DNA of 40,488 bases from Elusimicrobiota bacterium. Its GTDB lineage: Bacteria > Elusimicrobiota > Elusimicrobia > Elusimicrobiales > UBA9959. The stretch spans positions 1 to 40,488 of the forward strand of contig JAAYVG010000049.1 of NCBI GenBank assembly GCA_012517285.1. The letters run 5' to 3'. The position numbers and the translations under genes were made by a program. Below the pieces are notes generated by a model. The model did not search any database, had not been told where the DNA came from, and was given only the letters and a program-made list of their open reading frames with translations. This document shows, in pieces, positions 2,848 to 24,320 of this stretch; position 1 is the first letter of the stretch, and the number at the start of each line of letters is the position of its first letter.

Positions 2848-3260
2848 CTGATTGTTTTTCTCCTGCTTTTAATTTTTTTAGGTTCTTCAGTTTTTTTAGT
2901 TTTAAGCTTCCAACTTACTTTTTCACAATCAGAGTATATCTTGTCTATACCGTAAAAATCTCTTTTTTCTTTATCAAAGATATGTATAACAAGACCGCCG
3001 TAGTCAAGAACCTTCCATTCCTCAGAAAATACGCCATCCCTGTGTAGAAGAAACTCATTCTTTTCAGTTTTAAATTTTTTGCTTATCTCTTCCTCTATTG
3101 CGTTTATCTGAGGTGATGAGATCCCTTCTGTTATAATGGCATAGTAAAACAGTCCTGTTTTTGTTTCAACATCGTATATGACTGTATTCTCAGCTTTTTT
3201 GTTGTCAGATATCCTTGCTGCATCAACAGCTAATTTTTTGTAATATTTTTTGTCCTTCAT
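2844..3260 (-). CDS. rsfS: Ribosomal silencing factor RsfS (Iojap/YbeB family)
   Basis: A 138-residue protein that matches the RsfS fold. Members bind ribosomal protein L14 and block subunit joining when nutrients are short. The diagnostic segment is EWKVLDYGGLVIHIF followed by KRDFYGIDKIY, equivalent to the family's W-x-V-x-D-x-G-x-x-x-x-H-x-F ... R-x-F-Y pattern. A basic tail of about 20 residues (KKIKSRRKTIR) extends beyond the usual domain. It overlaps argS by 4 bp and the cyclic-nucleotide-binding gene by 4 bp. Its place downstream of nadD-yqeK agrees with the order in many bacteria. Confidence 0.92.
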   Translation of the reverse strand: MKDKKYYKKLAVDAARISDNKKAENTVIYDVETKTGLFYYAIITEGISSPQINAIEEEISKKFKTEKNEFLLHRDGVFSEEWKVLDYGGLVIHIFDKEKRDFYGIDKIYSDCEKVSWKLKTKKTEEPKKIKSRRKTIR

Positions 3261-4102
3261 AGCTCTCCTTTTTTTTGTCTCAGTTTAGCAAGCAGATAAG
3301 CTTCTCTGTTATTGCGAGTCTTTTCTATTCCATTTGAGACTATATGAAATATTGTATTAAATATTGTTGTAAAATCATTGATCTCATTCTTTAAAAGTTC
3401 TTTTTTGGATATAAATATAAGGCTTGCAGCAATTTTTTCTTTCATTTTAATCTGCATTATATATGTTCTGTTATCTATCCACCGTGATGATGAGTAACCA
3501 CCTGGGTTTATCTTAGCATTAAGCTTGTCATCCAGTTCTTTTATCTTTTCAAACTCTTCATTGTATGGATTGTAATAGTATCCTTCTATATCCCACTCAG
3601 GGAAATAAAGCGATATTTCATCTATAACTGATGATATAAATTCCTTCTCATCCCTGTGCTCTTCAGAAAGTTCCTTTGATATATCATAGAGCAATGTGAG
3701 CTCTTCTGATGTGTGAGCTATCCTTGATGAAAGCGTCTTTATTATCAGTATGAGAATTCTGGCAAGCATCTCGGGATTGCTTTTTATAAGACCCAAAAAA
3801 TCTTCTTTTGTTATCTCAAAAAGTGATACATTGTTTAATGCCCTTGCCCTTGCTGTCCTTTTTGAGTTTTCAAAAACAGCCATCTCGCCTAAAAAACTTC
3901 CTCTTGAGATTATGGCTAAATCCTTGAACTCAGTTTTTTCTCTGTTTGTAGCCTTTTCTATTACGACATCACCATCACTTACTATGTATAGTGTGTGTGA
4001 ATCCTCATCCTCATCAAATATTATTTCATTCTCTTGATAATTTTTTAATATAAAATATTTTTTTACTTCATCATCGCTGAACAAATTCAGTAGATTCTCC
4101 AT
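3257..4102 (-). CDS. Cyclic-nucleotide-binding domain protein without HTH
   Basis: The N-terminal half (about residues 5-125) is a cNMP-binding beta-barrel. Its phosphate-binding cassette is GSFLGEMAVFENSKRTARAR, containing the GE and RTA residues that grip the cyclic phosphate. The remaining ~150 residues are mixed alpha/beta, perhaps GAF-like, with no helix-turn-helix, so it is unlikely to be a Crp-type DNA-binding regulator. I chose the ATG at 4102 because GGGAGGG lies 5 bp upstream. A longer frame reaches 4174 but has no ribosome site. It overlaps the end of pilT by 32 bp, so the two are probably translated together. A role as a second-messenger input to the pilus motor is inference. Confidence 0.82.
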   Translation of the reverse strand: MENLLNLFSDDEVKKYFILKNYQENEIIFDEDEDSHTLYIVSDGDVVIEKATNREKTEFKDLAIISRGSFLGEMAVFENSKRTARARALNNVSLFEITKEDFLGLIKSNPEMLARILILIIKTLSSRIAHTSEELTLLYDISKELSEEHRDEKEFISSVIDEISLYFPEWDIEGYYYNPYNEEFEKIKELDDKLNAKINPGGYSSSRWIDNRTYIMQIKMKEKIAASLIFISKKELLKNEINDFTTIFNTIFHIVSNGIEKTRNNREAYLLAKLRQKKGEL

Positions 4103-5165
4103 TAAACCCTCCCGTAACAAGTTTTCTAAACCCTTCTTTGTCAGTTGCTTTAGCAACTGCCTCCTCCAAATCAACCATATTGTTTTTCACAAGATTTGCA
4201 AGAGCTCTATCCATCGGTATCATCCCAAACTTTGCACCCGTTTCTATTGCACTGTATATAAGATGAGTCTTGCCTTCCCTTATAAGGTTGCTTATGGCTG
4301 GGGTCATTGTCATAAACTCCCTTGCAGCAACAACACCAGAGCCATCTTTTTTTGGTAAAAGCATTTGTGAGACAACTGCTTTAAGTGATGATGCTAATTG
4401 TATCCTTATCTGATTCTGTTGATGTGGTGGAAACACATCCACTATTCTATCCACAGTTGTTGCAGCATCCTGAGTGTGAAGTGTTGCAAATGTGAGATGT
4501 CCCGTCTCAGCGGTTGTTAGTGTAAGCTGTATGGTTTCAAGGTCTCTCATCTCTCCAACCAGTATGACATCAGGGTCTTCCCTAAGAGCTGATTTTAAAG
4601 CGTTTGCAAAGCTTTTTGTATGCTGGTTCACCTCTCGCTGTCTTATTATGGATTGGTTGTTTTCATATGTGAATTCAATAGGATCCTCTATGGTTATTAT
4701 GTTCATTTTGTACTTCTGATTTATAAGGTTTATAAGCGATGCAAGGGTTGTTGATTTCCCTGAACCTGTTGGTCCTGTAACAAGTATAAGCCCCTTCGGC
4801 AGATCTGTCATAGCAACTATTTCCTTTGAAAGCTTTATCTCCTCTGGGGTTGGTATTATTGATGGTATAATTCTTGCAACTGCTTCTATACCATTTTTTG
4901 ATACAAAAACATTCAGCCTGAATCTGCTAAGGCCTTTTATTGAAAACGAGCAATCTAACTCCCAGTTTTCTTCAAACTTAGCTTTCTGTGAATCTGATAA
5001 CAGGCTGTATATTATAGTCTTTGTCTGTTCTGATGATAAAACAGTATCATTTATTATGGGGACTATCTCATCCTTCAATCTCATCATAGGTGGTTTGCCA
5101 GGGGTTATGTGTATATCGCTTGCCCTGTGTTCTATTGCTGTTTTAAATATTGTCATCAGATCCAT
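4071..5165 (-). CDS. pilT: Type IV pilus retraction ATPase PilT
   Basis: A 364-residue hexameric secretion-type ATPase that powers pilus retraction at the inner-membrane base. An N-terminal PAS-like domain (IEHRASDIHITPGKPP) precedes the RecA-like core. The core has Walker A GPTGSGKSTT, the Asp box TIEDPIEF, Walker B ALREDPDVILVGEMRD and the His box TAETGHLTFATLHT. I chose the ATG at 5165 because AGGAGG sits 5 bp before it; the frame is open to 5207 but without a ribosome site. PilT versus the PilU paralogue is judged from length and overall pattern. No other pilus gene is in the window, and its position inside a nadD-rsfS operon is unusual. Confidence 0.93.
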   Translation of the reverse strand: MDLMTIFKTAIEHRASDIHITPGKPPMMRLKDEIVPIINDTVLSSEQTKTIIYSLLSDSQKAKFEENWELDCSFSIKGLSRFRLNVFVSKNGIEAVARIIPSIIPTPEEIKLSKEIVAMTDLPKGLILVTGPTGSGKSTTLASLINLINQKYKMNIITIEDPIEFTYENNQSIIRQREVNQHTKSFANALKSALREDPDVILVGEMRDLETIQLTLTTAETGHLTFATLHTQDAATTVDRIVDVFPPHQQNQIRIQLASSLKAVVSQMLLPKKDGSGVVAAREFMTMTPAISNLIREGKTHLIYSAIETGAKFGMIPMDRALANLVKNNMVDLEEAVAKATDKEGFRKLVTGGFNGESTEFVQR

Positions 5166-5202
5166 ATATCCTCCTGAGTTTTCAGTGAAAAACAAGACCA
5201 AA

Positions 5203-5245
5203 GGCAACCTACGAGGTTACATCTGTTTTCTGACTTCTGTTTCCA
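5203..5245. repeat. Small hairpin plus three heptamer units
   Basis: The 111-bp spacer between pilT and the LytR_C gene contains AACCTACGAGGTT, a 5-bp stem with a 3-base loop. Its CGWAGGTT-like tip resembles hairpins at 15333-15356 and 16708-16739. Three 7-bp units follow at 5225-5245 (GTTTTCT, GACTTCT, GTTTCCA), the reverse complement of the AGAAAAC/AGAAGTC family seen at 18459-18535. Because pilT has its own strong ribosome site after this spacer, a promoter or processing site could lie here, but none is clear. Confidence 0.45.
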
Positions 5246-5276
5246 TTAAACAACTATATAACCAGTGAACCCAGTA

Positions 5277-6080
5277 CTATCGATAGTCTTCTCCAAATAT
5301 TATTCTAACATCTCCTATCATATAATCATTTTCCAAATATACTTCTCTATCCTTTAGATGAATGATATCTATTATTTTTTTTGCCCTATCATAGTTTTCT
5401 ATATTGTTTATCACAACCCTTGTTTTTTCTCTTTTGTTTACATTCTTTTTTTCTATTATGTCTATGCCTGCCATTTTTAGATCACTAATAGCTTCTGTAA
5501 AATAGTTCTTATCAGCACCACTGTTTATAATCTCAACACTTATTGATAACTTATTCATATTTGATTGTATCTCATCATCTATTCGTATATCTGATCTTGA
5601 AAATATGATCTGAGAGGGTTCTCTATGAATGGCTTCAGTTATGAGTGTTATCCTGTCATAAATATTTATATTTGATTTAATGGAATAAAGAATTTTTATC
5701 AGTTTAAATATATCGGTTGGCCTCCTTTTCCAGTTATATAATCTCTTTTCAAATTCCTCTGTGTCAAAAGCTTTGTCACTAAGATCTATATATGGGATGT
5801 TCCTTTCTAATTCACCACCAAATCTGTTAAATATTTCAAATATCTCTTGGTTCAGGCTCGTATTCTTTTTTTTCTTTGATGAAGTGGAGGATGTTATATC
5901 TATAAGTCCTGTAAGAGGATCATATGTTATAAGGGATGGATATTTTGATAGACAGACTATCTTTATTTTTTTATTTTTGATAATAGAATTGCTCAAAGGG
6001 CTTCTTATAAAGATTACTGATATGATAATTATAAAAAAACATATAAGGGAGATCAGCACTCTTAATCTTTTTTCATTCAT
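5277..6080 (-). CDS. Membrane-anchored LytR_C-domain protein
   Basis: A 267-residue protein with one N-terminal membrane segment (about residues 5-24, LRVLISLICFFIIIISVIFI) and the remainder outside the cytoplasm. The C-terminal ~85 residues fit the LytR C-terminal domain: a strand SVEIINSG, a helix, GIDIIEKKNV, and a closing DVRIIFGEDY. The LCP phosphotransferase domain that usually precedes LytR_C is absent; the middle region (about 40-170) is not recognised. The start overlaps the nadD-yqeK stop by 8 bp. Genes of the LytR family often sit between yqeK and rsfS, which supports the assignment. Function in envelope assembly is inferred. Confidence 0.7.
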   Translation of the reverse strand: MNEKRLRVLISLICFFIIIISVIFIRSPLSNSIIKNKKIKIVCLSKYPSLITYDPLTGLIDITSSTSSKKKKNTSLNQEIFEIFNRFGGELERNIPYIDLSDKAFDTEEFEKRLYNWKRRPTDIFKLIKILYSIKSNINIYDRITLITEAIHREPSQIIFSRSDIRIDDEIQSNMNKLSISVEIINSGADKNYFTEAISDLKMAGIDIIEKKNVNKREKTRVVINNIENYDRAKKIIDIIHLKDREVYLENDYMIGDVRIIFGEDYR

Positions 6081-7158
6081 ATAAAAAACCGCCGTTTTTT
6101 TTCACAAATTCTCTTTTATAATCTCTGGTCTTGACAAAGGCATTTTCAATATCTTTAAATGCTATTTCCCTTATTTCCACTGCTTCTTTAAAGCTTCGTT
6201 TTTCAGATGCAAAATCACTTACATATATTATTTTATCTAATAATGACATTTTTTTATCACCGGTTGTGTGCTTAGATATTGCTGAAAGGATTTCAGTGTC
6301 TTTTATATTAAATATTTTTTTTGCTACGGCTGCTGATGCCCACTGATGTATTATATCAGGTGCCATAGCCTTGATCTTTTCAATATCTTTTATTTTTATC
6401 CCAGCTTTTTCTATCAACGATAACTGTTTTTTAATGCTCATATCTTTTGCTGAGTCGTGAAGCAGTGCTGAAAGAAATGCTTTTGTTATATCAACTTCAT
6501 ATTGCTTTGCAAGTTTTATCGCAAGTTTTACTGTTGATAGGATATGATCAAATCTTTCTCTGGTTACTATGTTTTTTACTCTATTTATAATATCTGAATA
6601 ATAGAGCCCATTATCTGTTATGTATTTTTTTACATAACTATCCAGTCCTGAATAATCAGTTGTAAACATCTTCATTCTTAAATCTGTGGAGGAGATATTA
6701 TCAAATTTTTCTTTTAATATAATTGCATTATATTTTCTCTTTATTGGATATCCCTTTCTGATACCAACAACAATATGAAAATATTTCAGTATATCCCTGT
6801 ATCTTTTCCACCTTTCAAACTCTTTAAATGAATCTGAACCCATAAGGAAATATAGATCAGAGTTCTTATATCTTTTTGCCATATATCTTGCGATTTCATA
6901 TGTATATACCCTTCTTTCTTTTTTATATTCAAAATCATTAATTTCAAAGTTTATATGATGTTTTATAAGCATTAATGATATCATTTTTTTCCTGTGCTCA
7001 TAATCTGCGGTATGTCTTGATTTAAAGGGAGATAGGTATGTCGGAATTATTATAATTTTCTCTGGCCTTATTCTTTTTATTGCTGCCTTAAGCAGTTTTA
7101 TGTGATAGCTGTGGGGGGGATCAAAGCTACCACCAAATACAATTATATTTGTTCTCAT
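6073..7158 (-). CDS. nadD: NadD-YqeK fusion: nicotinate-mononucleotide adenylyltransferase and HD phosphohydrolase
   Basis: A 361-residue two-domain protein. Residues 1-~185 are NadD, which makes deamido-NAD from NaMN and ATP: nucleotidyltransferase motif GGSFDPPHSYH, then PTYLSPFKS, FLMGSDSFKEFERW and ISSTDLRM. Residues ~200-361 are a YqeK-type HD domain, a family that hydrolyses Ap4A: H at DHILSTVKLA, LLHDSAKDMS, SKHTTGDKKMSLLDK and IYVSDFASEKR. The two are usually separate adjacent genes. The T/HxGH motif has tyrosine where glycine is expected (HSYH). The start has no Shine-Dalgarno site but a TATAAT lies 15 bp upstream. First gene of the minus-strand operon. Confidence 0.9.
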   Translation of the reverse strand: MRTNIIVFGGSFDPPHSYHIKLLKAAIKRIRPEKIIIIPTYLSPFKSRHTADYEHRKKMISLMLIKHHINFEINDFEYKKERRVYTYEIARYMAKRYKNSDLYFLMGSDSFKEFERWKRYRDILKYFHIVVGIRKGYPIKRKYNAIILKEKFDNISSTDLRMKMFTTDYSGLDSYVKKYITDNGLYYSDIINRVKNIVTRERFDHILSTVKLAIKLAKQYEVDITKAFLSALLHDSAKDMSIKKQLSLIEKAGIKIKDIEKIKAMAPDIIHQWASAAVAKKIFNIKDTEILSAISKHTTGDKKMSLLDKIIYVSDFASEKRSFKEAVEIREIAFKDIENAFVKTRDYKREFVKKNGGFLYE

Positions 7159-7165
7159 AAATTTG

Positions 7166-7179
7166 TATAATTTATTATA
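7166..7179. promoter_or_regulatory. Divergent promoter pair with two TATAAT boxes
   Basis: The 32-bp gap between two divergent starts holds TATAAT on the plus strand (7166-7171) and TATAAT on the minus strand (7179-7174). The boxes end 19 bp before the ATG at 7191 and 15 bp before the ATG at 7158. No Shine-Dalgarno sequence precedes either start, so transcripts would have leaders of about 10 nt or less. The -35 regions would fall inside the opposing genes. AT richness makes chance boxes possible. Confidence 0.45.
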
Positions 7180-7190
7180 TTAAATTAATT

Positions 7191-7949
7191 ATGAACAGAG
7201 AAAATTCAATTATATATTTAGTATCCTCTCCAGACTCTGATAGCACATTTGAAGAGTTAAAAGATGCCTTTGGTGCTGAAAGAGCCGTGGATATCAATAT
7301 GGACCTTTATATGAGGACATACTCTAAGATTATGGATTATAAGAACGCTGTCTTGATTATAGCTTATGCAAAGACAAGAAAATATTATGATCTCAGATGG
7401 CTTAGCTATGATGAGCCAGGCTTCCTTGATATATCAGGTAGATCCTATCACGATGCTTTTATCTCAACGGCTGATCTTGCCTTTAAAACTGGGGCCAGAA
7501 AGGTTTTATGGATTAACCACCTCTGTCCATTTATTACATCGGCTGATATAGCTCTTGCATTCTCAAATATCAATGAAAAAAATATTGTAATAGGACCGGC
7601 AAGCAATAAGGGACTTTATCTTGTTGGTTTTCAAAGAGATGCTCTTGATGTCTTTGATGATTTTTATCCTTTCAGAGATAATCTTACTGATGAGGTTATG
7701 GAGAGAATTAAAAAAAACAGATATTCTGTAGTGGAGATGAAAGAAAACATACTGGTAAAGGATGAGGATTCTTTAAAGATTCTGAGCGAAGGTGTTAAAC
7801 CTGATCTAAAAAACAGTGTTTTGACTGATGCTGATAACTCGGCTGTTTATGACAATAATATTAAACACAAAAAAAAGCATGATAGAAAGGATGATTCATT
7901 AAATAAAACCGCTGATTCTGTTGAGCTTGATTTAAACAAAAAAAACTGA
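7191..7949 (+). CDS. DUF2064-like glycosyltransferase-fold protein, motif-degenerate
   Basis: A 252-residue protein resembling the DUF2064 (GT-A-like) family. The central part has VLWINHLCPFITSADIALAF and VIGPASNKGLYLVGFQ. These align with the family's G-S-D-C-P ... GPA-x-DGGYYLIG pattern, but the metal/nucleotide-binding Asp and the DGGY are replaced (INHLCP; NKGLY). Catalysis is therefore doubtful. The last ~55 residues are a charged, lysine- and aspartate-rich tail of low complexity. It is 31 bp upstream of tldE on the same strand, with probable co-transcription. The family call is moderate; the role is unknown. Confidence 0.6.
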   Translation: MNRENSIIYLVSSPDSDSTFEELKDAFGAERAVDINMDLYMRTYSKIMDYKNAVLIIAYAKTRKYYDLRWLSYDEPGFLDISGRSYHDAFISTADLAFKTGARKVLWINHLCPFITSADIALAFSNINEKNIVIGPASNKGLYLVGFQRDALDVFDDFYPFRDNLTDEVMERIKKNRYSVVEMKENILVKDEDSLKILSEGVKPDLKNSVLTDADNSAVYDNNIKHKKKHDRKDDSLNKTADSVELDLNKKN

Positions 7950-11671: not shown

Positions 11672-12337
11672 TTATCTTTCTAATTTTTCCTGTAACTTTG
11701 AAAGAAGTATTTTAAAATTTGAGTTTTTATAATAATCTCTTTTTTCTTCAGGAAGTATTGTTGATAGTTTGACCCTGTAATCATTCTTTGTAAGGTTATC
11801 TATATTTTTTATAATTGCTAAAGCTTTTTCTCCTGTTATATTTAGATTTATTCCTTTTTTAACCATAAATTCAATATCATAAACATCTCTTATTTCCTTC
11901 CTGTTAAGAAATGCATCTACTTTAAATTTCATCATATCATCAAGAATTATTGAGTTTAATAATACCTGTTTCTCACTGTGGGTAGAATAGGCAATGTTTT
12001 TTTCCATTCTTAATTTCTTTTTTTCCTTTCTTATTTCTATTTTTAATGAGCTTGGATATTCATCTGATCTTATTTCAAAAACTATAGAAAAAAATTTGTT
12101 ATGACAATCTTTAATGACATACTTCTTTTCAAGTAATTTCTTTATCTTCTCAAAAAATAAGTTAAAGTTTAAATTTTTATAAACCCAGAAGTCCAGATCA
12201 ACTGAATATCTATCAAGTCCGTAACACAACCTTAACATTGTCCCACCAACAAAAACCAGATTATTAAGGATATTATTTTTGTTGAGGTATTCAATGACCT
12301 CTATTTCAAATATCTCATGTCTTATTAAATCCTGCAT
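11672..12337 (-). CDS. abiEii: AbiEii toxin, nucleotidyltransferase
   Basis: A 221-residue DNA-polymerase-beta-like nucleotidyltransferase, the toxin of the type IV AbiE system. The core motif is VFVGGTMLRLCYGLDRYSVD followed by LDF: Gly31-Gly32 and the metal-binding pair Asp47/Asp49. The later family block is DDMMKFKVDAFLNRKEIRDV ahead of YDIEF. Related enzymes transfer nucleotides to tRNA or other targets in vitro; the target here is unknown. Its start overlaps the antitoxin gene by 13 bp, the usual AbiE layout, implying coupled translation. The code is very AT-rich. The pair sits beside a repeat-element end, consistent with mobile defence cargo. Confidence 0.9.
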   Translation of the reverse strand: MQDLIRHEIFEIEVIEYLNKNNILNNLVFVGGTMLRLCYGLDRYSVDLDFWVYKNLNFNLFFEKIKKLLEKKYVIKDCHNKFFSIVFEIRSDEYPSSLKIEIRKEKKKLRMEKNIAYSTHSEKQVLLNSIILDDMMKFKVDAFLNRKEIRDVYDIEFMVKKGINLNITGEKALAIIKNIDNLTKNDYRVKLSTILPEEKRDYYKNSNFKILLSKLQEKLER

Positions 12338-12921
12338 ATTTTCTCCATAGCCCTTATTGTTTTATTAGGATATTTTTTTGATAATTTTTTTAGTTTTTTG
12401 ATATCTATCTTATTTAGATCAATGGCATTTAAATCAAGGGAGTATTTCCCAAATGAGTAAAGATATATGCAATCCAAAAATGCTTTTTCTTTTTCTGCTA
12501 TAAAAAAGTTTTTTTCTTTCTTAAAGTTACTATAAAATTTTTCCTTTATTTTAAAGTATTTAAATATCCTCCCATTGATATTATATTCTTTTGTCATACC
12601 AAGTGTTATCCCTTCTACAACAGTAGCAGGCATCTGAGTGGTTATACCATAATAATAAAGAGCATTTGAAAGAGAAACATAGGATGGGACTCTTAAAACA
12701 GAGAGGATTGAGAAATAATCTGTTAAAGAATTTTTATCCCATTGTGAATAAAAGCAGTAATAATTTTGTTTTATCTTTATAAAAAGCTTTTTCTTTACAT
12801 ATCTTGAGCAAAAAACCCTTGCTCCATCAATAGTTATTCCTAATTTATTTGATATATCATAAACAGTAAAATATGGCTTGTCTATCAGGTCTGATATCTT
12901 TATAATATTTTTACTGAGCAT
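12325..12921 (-). CDS. abiEi: AbiEi antitoxin and repressor
   Basis: A 198-residue protein with an N-terminal winged helix-turn-helix (about residues 8-55, FTVYDISNKLGITIDGARVF) followed by the AbiEi core, with VSLSNALYYYG and the C-terminal KEKAFLDCIYLYSFG. In studied systems AbiEi neutralises AbiEii and represses its own promoter by binding inverted repeats. No Shine-Dalgarno sequence precedes the ATG. Instead a perfect palindrome begins at the first base of the start codon (12921-12950), with TATACT just ahead of the ATG. It is the first gene of the two-gene operon. Confidence 0.88.
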   Translation of the reverse strand: MLSKNIIKISDLIDKPYFTVYDISNKLGITIDGARVFCSRYVKKKLFIKIKQNYYCFYSQWDKNSLTDYFSILSVLRVPSYVSLSNALYYYGITTQMPATVVEGITLGMTKEYNINGRIFKYFKIKEKFYSNFKKEKNFFIAEKEKAFLDCIYLYSFGKYSLDLNAIDLNKIDIKKLKKLSKKYPNKTIRAMEKICRI

Positions 12922-19591: not shown

Positions 19592-21451
19592 TTATTTTGC
19601 TTTTAGAAGAGCAAAATAAAATTTACTGCCCTTTCCCTTTTCAGATTCGAACCATATCTTGCCATTGTGTTTTTCTATTATTGTTTTTGTTATTGAAAGC
19701 CCAAGTCCATTGCCTTCCACATCAAGCATGGTTTCCCTTGATCTGTAAAATTTTTCAAATATATGTTTTTTATCCTCTTCGTCAATCCCAATACCATTGT
19801 CAGAAACTTCAAAGACCGTAAAGCTTCCCCTGTCATACAACCTTATATTTATTTCAGTTTCTTCCTTTGAATACTTTATAGCATTATCAATTAAATTGGT
19901 TATTGCCTGAACAAGCCAATGCCTGTCTCCCATTATAAAAGAATTTTCTGTATTTCTATCAAATTTTATCTTTATTTTTTTTGCATAGGCTTTGGATTTC
20001 AGTGAGCTTATGGAGTTATCTATCAGCTCGGTTATATCACAGCTCTCAAGTTCAAAGTCTGAGATTGAATTGAGCTTTGATATGTCAAGGAGATTGGTTA
20101 CTATATTTATAAGCCTGTCGGTGGCATCATCAACCATTTTTAAAAACATCATCTGTTGGTCATTTAAGTTTCCTGCCTCACCGTTAAGCATCACAGATAC
20201 AAAGCCTTTTATTGTTGTAAGCGGGGTTTTTATCTCATGGTTTACTGTTGCTAAAAAATCATCCTTAATCCTGTTGAGATTTGCGAGGTTCACAGTATCA
20301 GATGAAAGTTTATTGTATAGCTCAAAAAGATTTACCATTATAGCAAGTTCCTCGGAGATCATCTCCACAAGTTTTATGTCATCACTTATAATATTCTTTC
20401 CCTCCTGTATAGCTATCAGTAAGACTCCAAACCTTGATGTGGCTGTGTATATAGGGGATATTATGGCAGTTTTTATATCATTTTCTTTGAGTATATCATC
20501 AGTTTCTTTGTCATCGTAAATATAAAGAATATTCTTGTTTGTAAACGATTTGACTATAACTGAGTTATGATCATTAATATCTACTGGTTTTACTGATTTT
20601 ATACTTTCAGGAAAAAATGAATAAGGAGTGAGTGAGTTAACCTTGTCATCATATGAAAAATATACAACAAACAGTGGATTTAAATATTTATACACCAGCT
20701 CCATAAGATATTTTATTGGATTATCTATGTTTGAGGTGAAGCTTGTTATACCTTCATAGACGAGCTTTGCCTCTCTGCTTTTTTTTATGAGTCTTGAACC
20801 CTGATTCTCAAATTCCCTTACAACAGCATCTATCTCATTCTTCAGCTTTTTGTTCTCATTCTTTATTTGCTCTGTTCCCTTATAGATGTTAGACAAAAAG
20901 TTTTTAACCATTAAAATAAATTCAGCACAGTTCATCAGCTCATCGGTTATAGAATTGTTTGAAATTATTACCGAAACAATCCTTCTATCGGAGATGCCAA
21001 CTGATATAAATATTGCATTCTTGTTTTTCTTTGGAACGAGCTCAGTATTTTTTTCAAGTTTAATTTCTTCTTTGAAGTTATTTAATGCCTCATTTATTTT
21101 AGAAAATATAAGATTTTCTTTAAGATTATTTATCCCTCGAATATAGCTCCAGTTTTTGGCGTCGTTTTCGAATATGTATGCTGATGTTTCAGGAAATGTG
21201 GAGTTGAGCTTTACAAATATCATATTGAGAAGATTGATATAGTTGTTCATATCAAAGAGATTTGATGATAGAACTGATGATACGAATGTTTTCAATCTTC
21301 TACTCGCATCCAACTGATTTTCAATCCTTTGCTGAAGTGGTAATATCTTCTTAAACCTTATATACCAATATATGAAAAACGCTATAACAAGAAGCATTAT
21401 TGAGTATATATATATCATATGGATCACTGAAAAAGATGGTAAAAACTGCAC
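19592..21451 (-). CDS. Membrane sensor histidine kinase with GAF-like domain
   Basis: A 619-residue hybrid-free kinase: one membrane segment (about 12-31), a coiled coil (40-65 and 190-230), a GAF-like sensor (about 235-380), then HisKA and HATPase. The phospho-acceptor is His405 in FLATVNHEIKTPLTTIKG. ATP-site boxes are N (AITNLIDNAIKYSKE), G1 (VSDNGIGIDEED), F (IFEKFYR) and G2 (GNGLGLSITKTIIEKH). No receiver domain or response-regulator gene is adjacent. The start is GTG at 21451, reached after TATAAT (minus strand, 13 bp upstream); an internal ATG at 21418 is the alternative. The start region overlaps an inverted-repeat element (21424-21559), so the N terminus is uncertain. Confidence 0.9.
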   Translation of the reverse strand: MQFLPSFSVIHMIYIYSIMLLVIAFFIYWYIRFKKILPLQQRIENQLDASRRLKTFVSSVLSSNLFDMNNYINLLNMIFVKLNSTFPETSAYIFENDAKNWSYIRGINNLKENLIFSKINEALNNFKEEIKLEKNTELVPKKNKNAIFISVGISDRRIVSVIISNNSITDELMNCAEFILMVKNFLSNIYKGTEQIKNENKKLKNEIDAVVREFENQGSRLIKKSREAKLVYEGITSFTSNIDNPIKYLMELVYKYLNPLFVVYFSYDDKVNSLTPYSFFPESIKSVKPVDINDHNSVIVKSFTNKNILYIYDDKETDDILKENDIKTAIISPIYTATSRFGVLLIAIQEGKNIISDDIKLVEMISEELAIMVNLFELYNKLSSDTVNLANLNRIKDDFLATVNHEIKTPLTTIKGFVSVMLNGEAGNLNDQQMMFLKMVDDATDRLINIVTNLLDISKLNSISDFELESCDITELIDNSISSLKSKAYAKKIKIKFDRNTENSFIMGDRHWLVQAITNLIDNAIKYSKEETEINIRLYDRGSFTVFEVSDNGIGIDEEDKKHIFEKFYRSRETMLDVEGNGLGLSITKTIIEKHNGKIWFESEKGKGSKFYFALLKAK

Positions 21452-21563: not shown

Positions 21564-23402
21564 TCATATAAGATCAAGGATTGCTGATAGGTAAACAGAG
21601 TTTGCTTTCAATCTGTTTGAATAAAACCATGCACTCTTGATGTTGATGCTTTCCATTATCTTTTCAGTAAGATGTCTAAACTCCTCTTCCTTAGCGCTTA
21701 AAGCACTTGTTGTTGGAGGCCCTATTACAATGAGTCCATTTATGTTTTTATCAATAACAAAGTTTCCTATTTTAAAAGGGATACCATATATCTCATCTGG
21801 ATCATACTCCTCAGTGAATACAGTTTCCCATGATAGTTCGGTTGAAAGGTTTTTAGATGCAACCTCTTTCATTCTTCGAGAGATGTATCCTATGACATCC
21901 TTCATCCCCTTTGGATAAAAAATTCCCCATTTATAGAAACTTTCATCGCTGGTGCCAGAATAAAAGTTAGCTCCCTTTAACTCATCAGCTCCAGGTATGG
22001 TTAAATCATCCTTTTCACCTGTGAGCATCTCAATCATATCCTGATGCAGAATCGAATTATTTGTTTGAGATATGTACCTCTCTAATTTTTTAGCTCTAAA
22101 AAGTATTTTGCTTACCGTCCTAAAATCCAAATTTTTTGACACAAAGAATTTTTTTATATGATCCTCTGCTAACTTTATATCCATATTGTTTAGAAGCTGG
22201 TCAAGAATAGATCTGTATGTGTTTGAGTTCGGTTGCTTTATATCAACCATCCAGCCCTGTGAAAACTGAATACCAATCATATTTTCAAGCGGTTCCAGTT
22301 CCTGAGGTGAAAACAGTGATGAAAATACAACCTGCTTGTTTGACTGCATTGACTGACTGAGTATTTTTGATATAAATGCCTTGTTCTCCTTGTTTATAAG
22401 CATAAGATGAATATCGTCTATGATTATTACCTTGCAGTCATTTATTATCCTTTCAATCTTGTCCAAAAAATTACCCTTTATTGCAATATTAACCCCTATT
22501 GAGAGTTTAACACCATTTGTAACAAATATATTCTTCTGGCCTATTGATGACGAAAGCCCGTATGACATAGAGTGGATGAAGTGAGATTTACCATTTCCAA
22601 CAGGTCCATATATAAGTATTGGATTGTACATCACTCCAGGGTTTTCCACAACGGCCATAGCTGCAGCATGTGCAAAGCGGTTGTGTGAGCCGGTTATAAG
22701 GGTTTGAAAGCTCAACATAGGATTTAATGGCAGTTCTATTGACCATTTCAGTTTAAGTCTTTCTGCAGTTCTTTTGGTTATGGCTGTATCATCTGAAGAT
22801 TTAGTATCACCTTCAACTTTGCTTACAGTGTTTTCTTCTTTCTTATCATCTGTTGGATGATCATTGCTTTCACCGATCTGATTGTGTTTTATATTCTGGC
22901 TGGATGGTTCAATGCTGCCTTTCTTGGGTTTATTCTCTCTTGCTGCTGCGACAGTGTCTGGAACCTGAATTTTTTCCGGGTCTTTTATTACCGGTTCATC
23001 TTTAATATCCGATGACTTTAGCTCTTCTTCTTTATTGACATTTTCTTTTATCTCAAGATCTGGCATAGGGATATCTATGGTATCGGCTACTGATGCAGAT
23101 CTGTTGGTTGCCGGTACATAACTTGGAGCTTGAACATTTGCCGGGGTGAATCTTTTCTGATTCGGAGATTTAGATTTTGATATATCATCAAGAATATTTT
23201 TAAACTTTTCTTCAATTCCTGCATCATATTCAAAAAGATATATTAAAAAATTATAATCATTTGATATAATCCTCTCAGGTCTTGAACAAACTGCACCAAG
23301 AGATTTTATTATTTTTAATATGTCCTTCAGTTCACATTTCAACAGCAATCTGTATTTCTTTTTTGGATCACCTGTTTCAGCTATCTCCCATTTGGTTATC
23401 AT
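21564..23402 (-). CDS. DnaA-like AAA+ ATPase lacking DNA-binding domain
   Basis: A 612-residue protein. A small N-terminal alpha/beta domain (1-~75) is followed by a disordered, charged linker (~80-215) and a DnaA/Hda-type AAA+ core (~218-430). The core has NPMLSFQTLITGSHNRFAHA, Walker A GPVGNGKS (266-273) and Walker B VIIIDDIH (325-332). The expected arginine-finger region (RxRSRF in DnaA) reads LENMIGIQFSQGWMVDI, without the arginines; a sensor-2-like Arg remains in LDFRTVSKILFRAKK. DnaA domain IV (DNA-binding HTH) is absent; instead the last ~170 residues form an unrecognised domain. It is therefore not the replication initiator. The start lies 2 bp after the acidic partner's stop. Confidence 0.8.
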   Translation of the reverse strand: MITKWEIAETGDPKKKYRLLLKCELKDILKIIKSLGAVCSRPERIISNDYNFLIYLFEYDAGIEEKFKNILDDISKSKSPNQKRFTPANVQAPSYVPATNRSASVADTIDIPMPDLEIKENVNKEEELKSSDIKDEPVIKDPEKIQVPDTVAAARENKPKKGSIEPSSQNIKHNQIGESNDHPTDDKKEENTVSKVEGDTKSSDDTAITKRTAERLKLKWSIELPLNPMLSFQTLITGSHNRFAHAAAMAVVENPGVMYNPILIYGPVGNGKSHFIHSMSYGLSSSIGQKNIFVTNGVKLSIGVNIAIKGNFLDKIERIINDCKVIIIDDIHLMLINKENKAFISKILSQSMQSNKQVVFSSLFSPQELEPLENMIGIQFSQGWMVDIKQPNSNTYRSILDQLLNNMDIKLAEDHIKKFFVSKNLDFRTVSKILFRAKKLERYISQTNNSILHQDMIEMLTGEKDDLTIPGADELKGANFYSGTSDESFYKWGIFYPKGMKDVIGYISRRMKEVASKNLSTELSWETVFTEEYDPDEIYGIPFKIGNFVIDKNINGLIVIGPPTTSALSAKEEEFRHLTEKIMESINIKSAWFYSNRLKANSVYLSAILDLI

Positions 23403-23404
23403 AA

Positions 23405-24262
23405 TTATCTCACTATAAGATCAATTATAAAATCGATCAGCCTGCTCTTTGTTATATTATTTTTATTAAACTCTGTAAAATATATGCCGTTTTGGGTTAG
23501 AGCATTTTCTATATCATATTTTAATTCCACCGGCATCTCTCCAACAAGTACTACTGCTATAACCTTTTCAGAGTCTGCGTTTAAGAGCATGGCTTCCTTT
23601 GAAAAACTATCATCATATCTCATAACAAATGCCCTTTTTATAAACATTGGTTTTTCTTGACAAGATTGGGTTATATCATCAACACCTTTAAGGCACTCTG
23701 TAAATATTTTATCATCATCAGAGCTGTATATAAATCCAACATTCTTTATCCTTTCCCCATCAACATTTGGTGGGGGATCCTTTGATATCAAAGCATTTAA
23801 TTCGTCAGAAAAACTATTTATAGGAAAATCATTTTTTCTGTCCTCAACTACGGGTATGGTGTTTGCTGTATTATTTTCTGTAGTAATATTAAACTTTTTT
23901 TCGTCACTGCTTATATCCTCGTGATTTGGTTCACTTGTGTTGTTCAGTCCAAGACCCTGATTTTCTGCTGCACCGCTATTCTCATCAACGTTCAGATTTA
24001 GTTTAATCTCGATTTCTTCATCTTTTTTTAAAACGCTGTTGCTGTTTATTTCAGTTGGGTTTATGGATGATGAAGTTTCTTTTTCTGGGTTGTCCTGATT
24101 TTTATCTGTTCCTTCCATTTTTTGATCTTCATTTATATCATTTATGCTGTTAAGTATATCAGGCATCTTTTCCAATAAAGAATCAAGATTTCCAAGTACA
24201 TCCTCATAACCTTCTTTCTTTTCTTTTTCATTATCACTTTTTTCTTTGTCTTGCATAACCAT
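23405..24262 (-). CDS. Acidic low-complexity protein with C-terminal alpha/beta domain
   Basis: A protein of about 285 residues with no recognised family. A short helical head (DVLGNLDSLLEKMPDILNSI) is followed by about 130 Asp/Glu/Asn/Ser-rich residues without fold signature. The C-terminal ~115 residues look folded, with strand-helix alternation: NVGFIYSSDDDKIFTECL, KRAFVMRYDDSF, KVIAVVLVGEMP and LIDFIIDLIV. The ATG at 24262 was chosen because TATAAT lies 12 bp upstream and GAGAG just before; an upstream GTG at 24283 overlaps that promoter box. It is translationally close to the DnaA-like gene (2-bp gap), so the two probably act together. Function unknown. Confidence 0.65.
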   Translation of the reverse strand: MVMQDKEKSDNEKEKKEGYEDVLGNLDSLLEKMPDILNSINDINEDQKMEGTDKNQDNPEKETSSSINPTEINSNSVLKKDEEIEIKLNLNVDENSGAAENQGLGLNNTSEPNHEDISSDEKKFNITTENNTANTIPVVEDRKNDFPINSFSDELNALISKDPPPNVDGERIKNVGFIYSSDDDKIFTECLKGVDDITQSCQEKPMFIKRAFVMRYDDSFSKEAMLLNADSEKVIAVVLVGEMPVELKYDIENALTQNGIYFTEFNKNNITKSRLIDFIIDLIVR

Positions 24263-24274
24263 CTCTCTAAATAA

Positions 24275-24320
24275 ATTATACACTATTTATTAAATCAAAT
24301 ATCAATAAAAATGTTATAAT
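24275..24320. promoter_or_regulatory. Divergent -10 boxes between the acidic protein and the aminotransferase
   Basis: On the minus strand TGTATAAT (box at 24280-24275, extended -10) lies 12 bp before the ATG at 24262. On the plus strand TATAAT (24315-24320) ends only 6 bp before the ATG at 24327, which has no Shine-Dalgarno sequence. That spacing is what a leaderless transcript would have. No good -35 is visible. Confidence 0.55.

Follow-up and report, generated by a model that had tools for sequence, protein, structure and literature searches.

A DnaA-type AAA+ protein of Elusimicrobiota with new terminal domains and an acidic partner that shares one of them

AAA+ proteins of the DnaA clade are known as starters or regulators of replication, and a member without the DNA-box-reading domain IV raises the question of what such an ATPase might do. 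A protein of this kind, here called DnaA2, is encoded in the analysed stretch of DNA (the window, 40,488 nucleotides; contig C21 of an Elusimicrobiota genome of 1.96 Mb), and no description of it was found in a literature search of open-licence papers. An ATPase of the kind that starts replication seems here to have taken on a different role: this DnaA-clade member, conserved through much of the phylum, no longer has the domain that reads DNA boxes and has acquired two undescribed ones, of which one is common to its operon partner.

Domain architecture and motif states

The open reading frame at 21564..23402 is real, lies on the minus strand and encodes 612 amino acids; numerous stops interrupt the plus strand. 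Four segments were delimited, all on the minus strand: an N-terminal domain (NTD; residues 1-80, 23163..23402) with a conserved KW(E/D)(I/V)...RP motif and a predicted beta-beta-alpha-beta-alpha order, a low-complexity linker (residues 81-221, 22740..23162) rich in K, E, S, D and P, a DnaA-type AAA+ core with lid (residues 222-483, 21954..22739), and a C-terminal domain (CTD; residues 484-612, 21567..21953) in the place of DnaA domain IV. Residues 226-386 matched Pfam Bac_DnaA (PF00308) at 2.1e-27, above its cut-off, and PDB DnaA chains were matched down to 7e-24. The NCBIfam DnaA model (TIGR00362) was matched at 1.3e-37 with 129.9 bits, below the equivalog cut-off of 343.9. Both Walker motifs, A (GPVGNGKS, residues 266-273) and B (IIIDDIH, residues 326-332), are intact. 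Within the finger block, LENMIGIQF, Q379 aligns with the R285 finger of E. coli DnaA; the sensor II position holds an arginine (R428) that most of the window's clade lacks. Residue roles in E. coli DnaA were taken from published work (PMC5742627, PMC6127211). No match to domain IV (PF08299) was found in the gene, the sole match in the genome being the true dnaA on contig C13. The window protein has the AAA+ core and both Walker motifs of a DnaA, and lacks domain IV, the arginine finger, the ssDNA-binding arginine and an equivalog-level score. The sequence-only reading, which had described a core of DnaA/Hda type lacking both finger and domain IV, was thus borne out.

The same reading had called the C-terminal domain new and the N-terminal one unfamiliar. 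Pfam returned no family for residues 1-80 or 484-612 of the window protein and no consistent family in scans of 23 and 29 family members; PDB sequence searches with NTD, CTD and the partner protein described below gave nothing consistent, and Pfam likewise gave nothing consistent for the partner. The AlphaFold model of the CTD (pLDDT 94.7) consists of four beta-alpha units in a Rossmann-like arrangement, with the most conserved residues in the loops after strands. Foldseek placed the folds of Argonaute MID and lumazine synthase nearest to it (best E 4e-5, TM about 0.4-0.66), a likeness at fold level only, with 5-18% identity and no common motif shown. The NTD model (pLDDT 86.7) had no significant fold match, the best being RNA polymerase subunit L at E 7e-3. 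At sequence level the NTD resembled a phenylalanine hydroxylase ACT domain (E 0.044), but the fold search did not uphold this, ACT-like folds reaching 0.12.

Between two species of the genus, dN was 0.25, 0.14 and 0.20 for NTD, AAA+ core and CTD and 0.84 for the linker (dS saturated). Since the three folded segments change slowly whereas the linker changes fast, the gene is under purifying selection. Linker length is very variable across the family; in family f2 (L043, L044, L045, L050) linkers of about 450-1150 residues carry recurring short motifs, for example LEDILAAKTVMDVYAD in L043 and VDDIFAAETICEFYAD in L045. In another locus (L108, 7471-10239) the DnaA2 gene has its NTD in tandem duplicate.

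With DnaA, the protein has in common the initiator-clade AAA+ core with Walker motifs and lid and the layout of N-terminal domain, linker and AAA+ core; it differs in the missing domain IV, the other NTD, the new CTD and a neighbourhood of kinase, partner and PilT genes. The helicase-loader group DnaC/DnaI/IstB has a related AAA+ core, but scored below DnaA and has no flanking domains in common with DnaA2. Searches of DnaA2 and its partner against PADLOC models gave partial ATPase- and kinase-level matches only, with none for the partner, and the defence and phage libraries gave no specific match.

Spread of the family and order of changes

The true dnaA of the genome lies on contig C13, as the sequence-only reading had left to be located, so that DnaA2 is not the only dnaA-like gene of its genome. 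One complete chromosome carries both genes, with dnaA at about 1 kb and DnaA2 at 163 kb. True DnaA was separated from all DnaA2 at 100/100 in a tree built from 98 AAA+ domains, which is to be read with caution for its long branches. The genome's true DnaA (G000:C13:22260-23201, L001) itself has an unusual Walker A, SRPGLGKT instead of GGVGLGKT, and sensor II RSLKG; a Walker A starting with S recurs in most DnaA proteins of f1, the window's family, and f2.

DnaA2 distribution was searched within Elusimicrobiota, where the CTD profile was present in 41 of the 58 genera sampled, with no CTD-bearing homologue found to have domain IV; the architecture is conserved. Among the listed genomes of family f16 there were no CTD matches. 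Within the class, strong combined AAA+ and CTD matches occurred in families f1, f2, f3, f10, f11, f14 and f15, and weaker matches in other families may be true DnaA; one copy is kept across the class. The window protein itself fits the family definition of NTD, DnaA-type AAA+ and CTD without domain IV. Twenty loci from other families and classes (L096-L115) encode a DnaA AAA+ domain after a proline-rich linker, followed by the CTD and no domain IV, mostly with the NTD.

These relatives bear on the earlier claim that loss of the finger argues against DnaA-style filaments. Finger and sensor II arginine are kept in 19 of the 20 loci (L100 belongs to the finger-less clade), and the ssDNA-binding (ISM) position is Arg or Lys in 18 of the 19 finger-bearing loci, L097 being the exception. 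Across the alignment, the E. coli R285 finger position is Arg in 24/25 DnaA rows. The E. coli R245 position is Arg in 25/25 DnaA rows and Arg or Lys in 20/20 canonical-finger rows (18 distinct loci), against Arg in 0/53 DnaA2 rows without canonical finger context, the window's among them. The finger-less clade that holds the window (51 rows) forms one side of a 100/100 branch, and three of its rows have an arginine at the aligned finger position, but not in RxxSRF context. Every row retains Walker A, and almost every row Walker B. Loss of the finger is a late change within this one clade; the architecture elsewhere in the phylum retains finger, sensor II and, with few exceptions, the ssDNA-binding arginine, and is therefore no argument in itself against ATP-dependent assembly of DnaA type. 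With these residues present in relatives beyond the window's clade, the simplest reading is that domain IV was replaced first and that the canonical finger and ISM arginine were lost later, once.

The acidic partner and the gene neighbourhood

Directly upstream of DnaA2, at 23405..24283 on the minus strand, a 292-residue acidic protein is encoded, with a conserved N-terminal motif (VLGNLDSLLEKMPDIL at residue 29), an acidic region and a CTD-like domain (residues 165-292, 23408-23791, minus strand). This last domain is homologous to the CTD of DnaA2: the two sets of profiles aligned over 118 columns with E=8.8e-14 and a score of 80.3, compared with a maximum of 19.0 in column shuffles (n=100) and 14.7 for the reversed profile. 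With the window's clade alone the match was suggestive (E 6e-4 and 5e-5), and deeper relatives raised it. The C-terminal domain is accordingly new in having no described family, but it is not unique to DnaA2.

The partner is adjacent in nearly all members of the window's own family, as had been asked of homologues, and a single copy of it was found in 33 of 37 f1 genomes. In f2 it was found in none of 24 genomes, and the DnaA2 linker there is very long. Among loci with enough flank it lies upstream of DnaA2 in 42/67. The upstream partners of L105 and L096 start, in addition, with an NTD-like segment (weak but significant matches), so that both flanking domains are common to partner and DnaA2 there. 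L105 further holds, at 5079-7351, two AAA-less genes of NTD, linker and CTD in a row between a PilT gene and DnaA2.

Downstream of DnaA2 in the window follows a sensor histidine kinase gene (HisKA, HATPase_c; 19592..21451, minus strand). Among loci with enough flank, a histidine kinase gene follows DnaA2 directly in 55 of 71, phylum-wide, and a PilT-type ATPase gene precedes it in 19 of 41, counts in which, as in that for the partner, loci from related genomes are not independent and in which neighbours other than PilT were named from sequence rather than by profile. The genes for PilT, DnaA2 and kinase overlap by 4 bases in L098. The PilT in question (TIGR01420 family, with Walker A) precedes DnaA2 in many relatives, is a different protein from DnaA2 and does not adjoin the window's gene. 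In a tree with 22 other PilTs, the eighteen that neighbour DnaA2 grouped as a separate clade at 100/100; as this clade was sampled from neighbouring copies only, the tree shows a distinct paralogue rather than strict co-inheritance. No AIRNLIRE motif was recognisable in these PilTs, which makes a role in retraction unsure. PilT occurred in 30/30 DnaA2 genomes tested and in 8/14 without DnaA2, a comparison confounded by kinship.

Other PilTs were found in G000, G050, G159, G052 and G019, and none of the DnaA2-adjacent clade among those sampled. The window's lineage (f1) and f2 are without the distinct PilT, and f2 is also without the partner and mostly without the kinase; since DnaA2 is kept in both, it can work without them. 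A PilT gene of the window at 4071-5207 was considered as the missing one and falls in another PilT clade. It is part of a minus-strand stretch (3257-5207) with a PilT-family ATPase gene followed by a gene for a cyclic-nucleotide-binding protein. In G052 (C1:84750-85771) a PilT-like gene is broken by a TAA stop and is possibly a decaying copy.

Readings of the function

The reading that we favour, at about even confidence, is that DnaA2 is a non-replicative DnaA paralogue that serves a signalling module as its AAA+ scaffold or switch, and that this module has, or at least ancestrally had, a link to type IV pili. It would work with the partner and the sensor histidine kinase, joined in many lineages other than the window's by the distinct PilT-type ATPase; it would contact the partner CTD to CTD, and as an ATP-dependent scaffold or switch would couple the kinase to the pilus-related ATPase. 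ATP binding, partner contact and pilus control are inferences, the pilus connection from gene order in relatives, and the window's lineage has lost that PilT. Within the window's clade, assembly and hydrolysis residues have decayed with Walker A and B kept, so that the window protein is probably a nucleotide binder whose main role is that of a scaffold. A fuller version is tentative and, on balance, doubtful: an initiator-type AAA+ protein recruited as a pilus-linked signalling core, with ATP-driven assembly or switching, CTDs paired with an AAA-less partner of shared descent and a kinase coupled to its own PilT, the finger-bearing form possibly gripping imported ssDNA.

The sequence-only reading had suggested a scaffold or regulator, perhaps of replication initiation or of polar or regulatory complexes. 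Kinase and PilT neighbours are closer to the second; replication is not what the context indicates. A replication regulator, Hda-like or other, whose AAA+ core co-assembles with the true DnaA as NTD and CTD take in signals, is unlikely, even though its core belongs to the initiator clade and contact with ATP-DnaA would be open to the relatives that bear a finger. Hda is a DnaA-related AAA+ protein that inactivates DnaA (PMC5742627) and, like DnaA2, is a DnaA-type AAA+ protein without domain IV. The window protein nevertheless matched the Hda model (TIGR03420) weakly, at 30.5 bits against an equivalog cut-off of 194.8, has large additional domains at both ends and lacks the arginine finger. Clamp binding and stimulation of ATP hydrolysis by DnaA are the biochemical marks of Hda. 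It is also without the ISM arginine, finger and ISM arginine serving DnaA-DnaA and DnaA-ssDNA contacts, and no replication-initiation gene is among the conserved neighbours.

Next in order, and rather improbable, stands a factor for DNA uptake or ssDNA handling, in which the finger-bearing form would coat incoming ssDNA and be coupled to the PilT motor and to DNA-catabolic genes. The Arg or Lys at the ssDNA-binding position of nearly all finger-bearing loci is consistent with this, as are the ComM-, DprA-, TopA- and XerC-like genes that many loci of the class have downstream and the neighbouring DeoC, RpiB and microcompartment genes, the latter of the SPU type, for which a role in DNA catabolism has been proposed. 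On the other hand, dprA-topA-xerC is a common cluster by itself, comEC occurs also in genomes without DnaA2, and the window's form lacks the ssDNA-binding arginine and has neither ComM nor DprA as neighbours.

Quite improbable is a signal-input module of a microcompartment or sugar-phosphate operon, with the CTD as metabolite sensor and PilT and kinase as mere operon neighbours. In several families DeoC, RpiB, TpiA and SPU-type shell genes adjoin the module, and the conserved loop residues of the CTD are placed as in many ligand pockets. In the window's family those genes are non-adjacent, yet partner, DnaA2 and kinase stay together. PilT genes also adjoin sugar-phosphate and microcompartment genes, so that the neighbourhood may be a mixed super-operon. 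SPU-type genes lie directly upstream of the module in L098, L100, L101, L105, L113 and L115. That DnaA2 is a functionless, decaying dnaA duplicate is scarcely credible: finger loss in the window's clade would fit, but purifying selection, the single copy kept across the class and the conserved Walker motifs already contradict it.

The passage from finger-bearing to finger-less members offers a natural series for probing DnaA-type ATPase function without an origin, and the module a concrete gene set for testing in Elusimicrobiota, whose biology is little known. Elsewhere in the window, at 11672-12921 on the minus strand, an AbiEii-like nucleotidyltransferase gene lies beside an unmatched 198-residue open reading frame, possibly an AbiE-type toxin-antitoxin pair.
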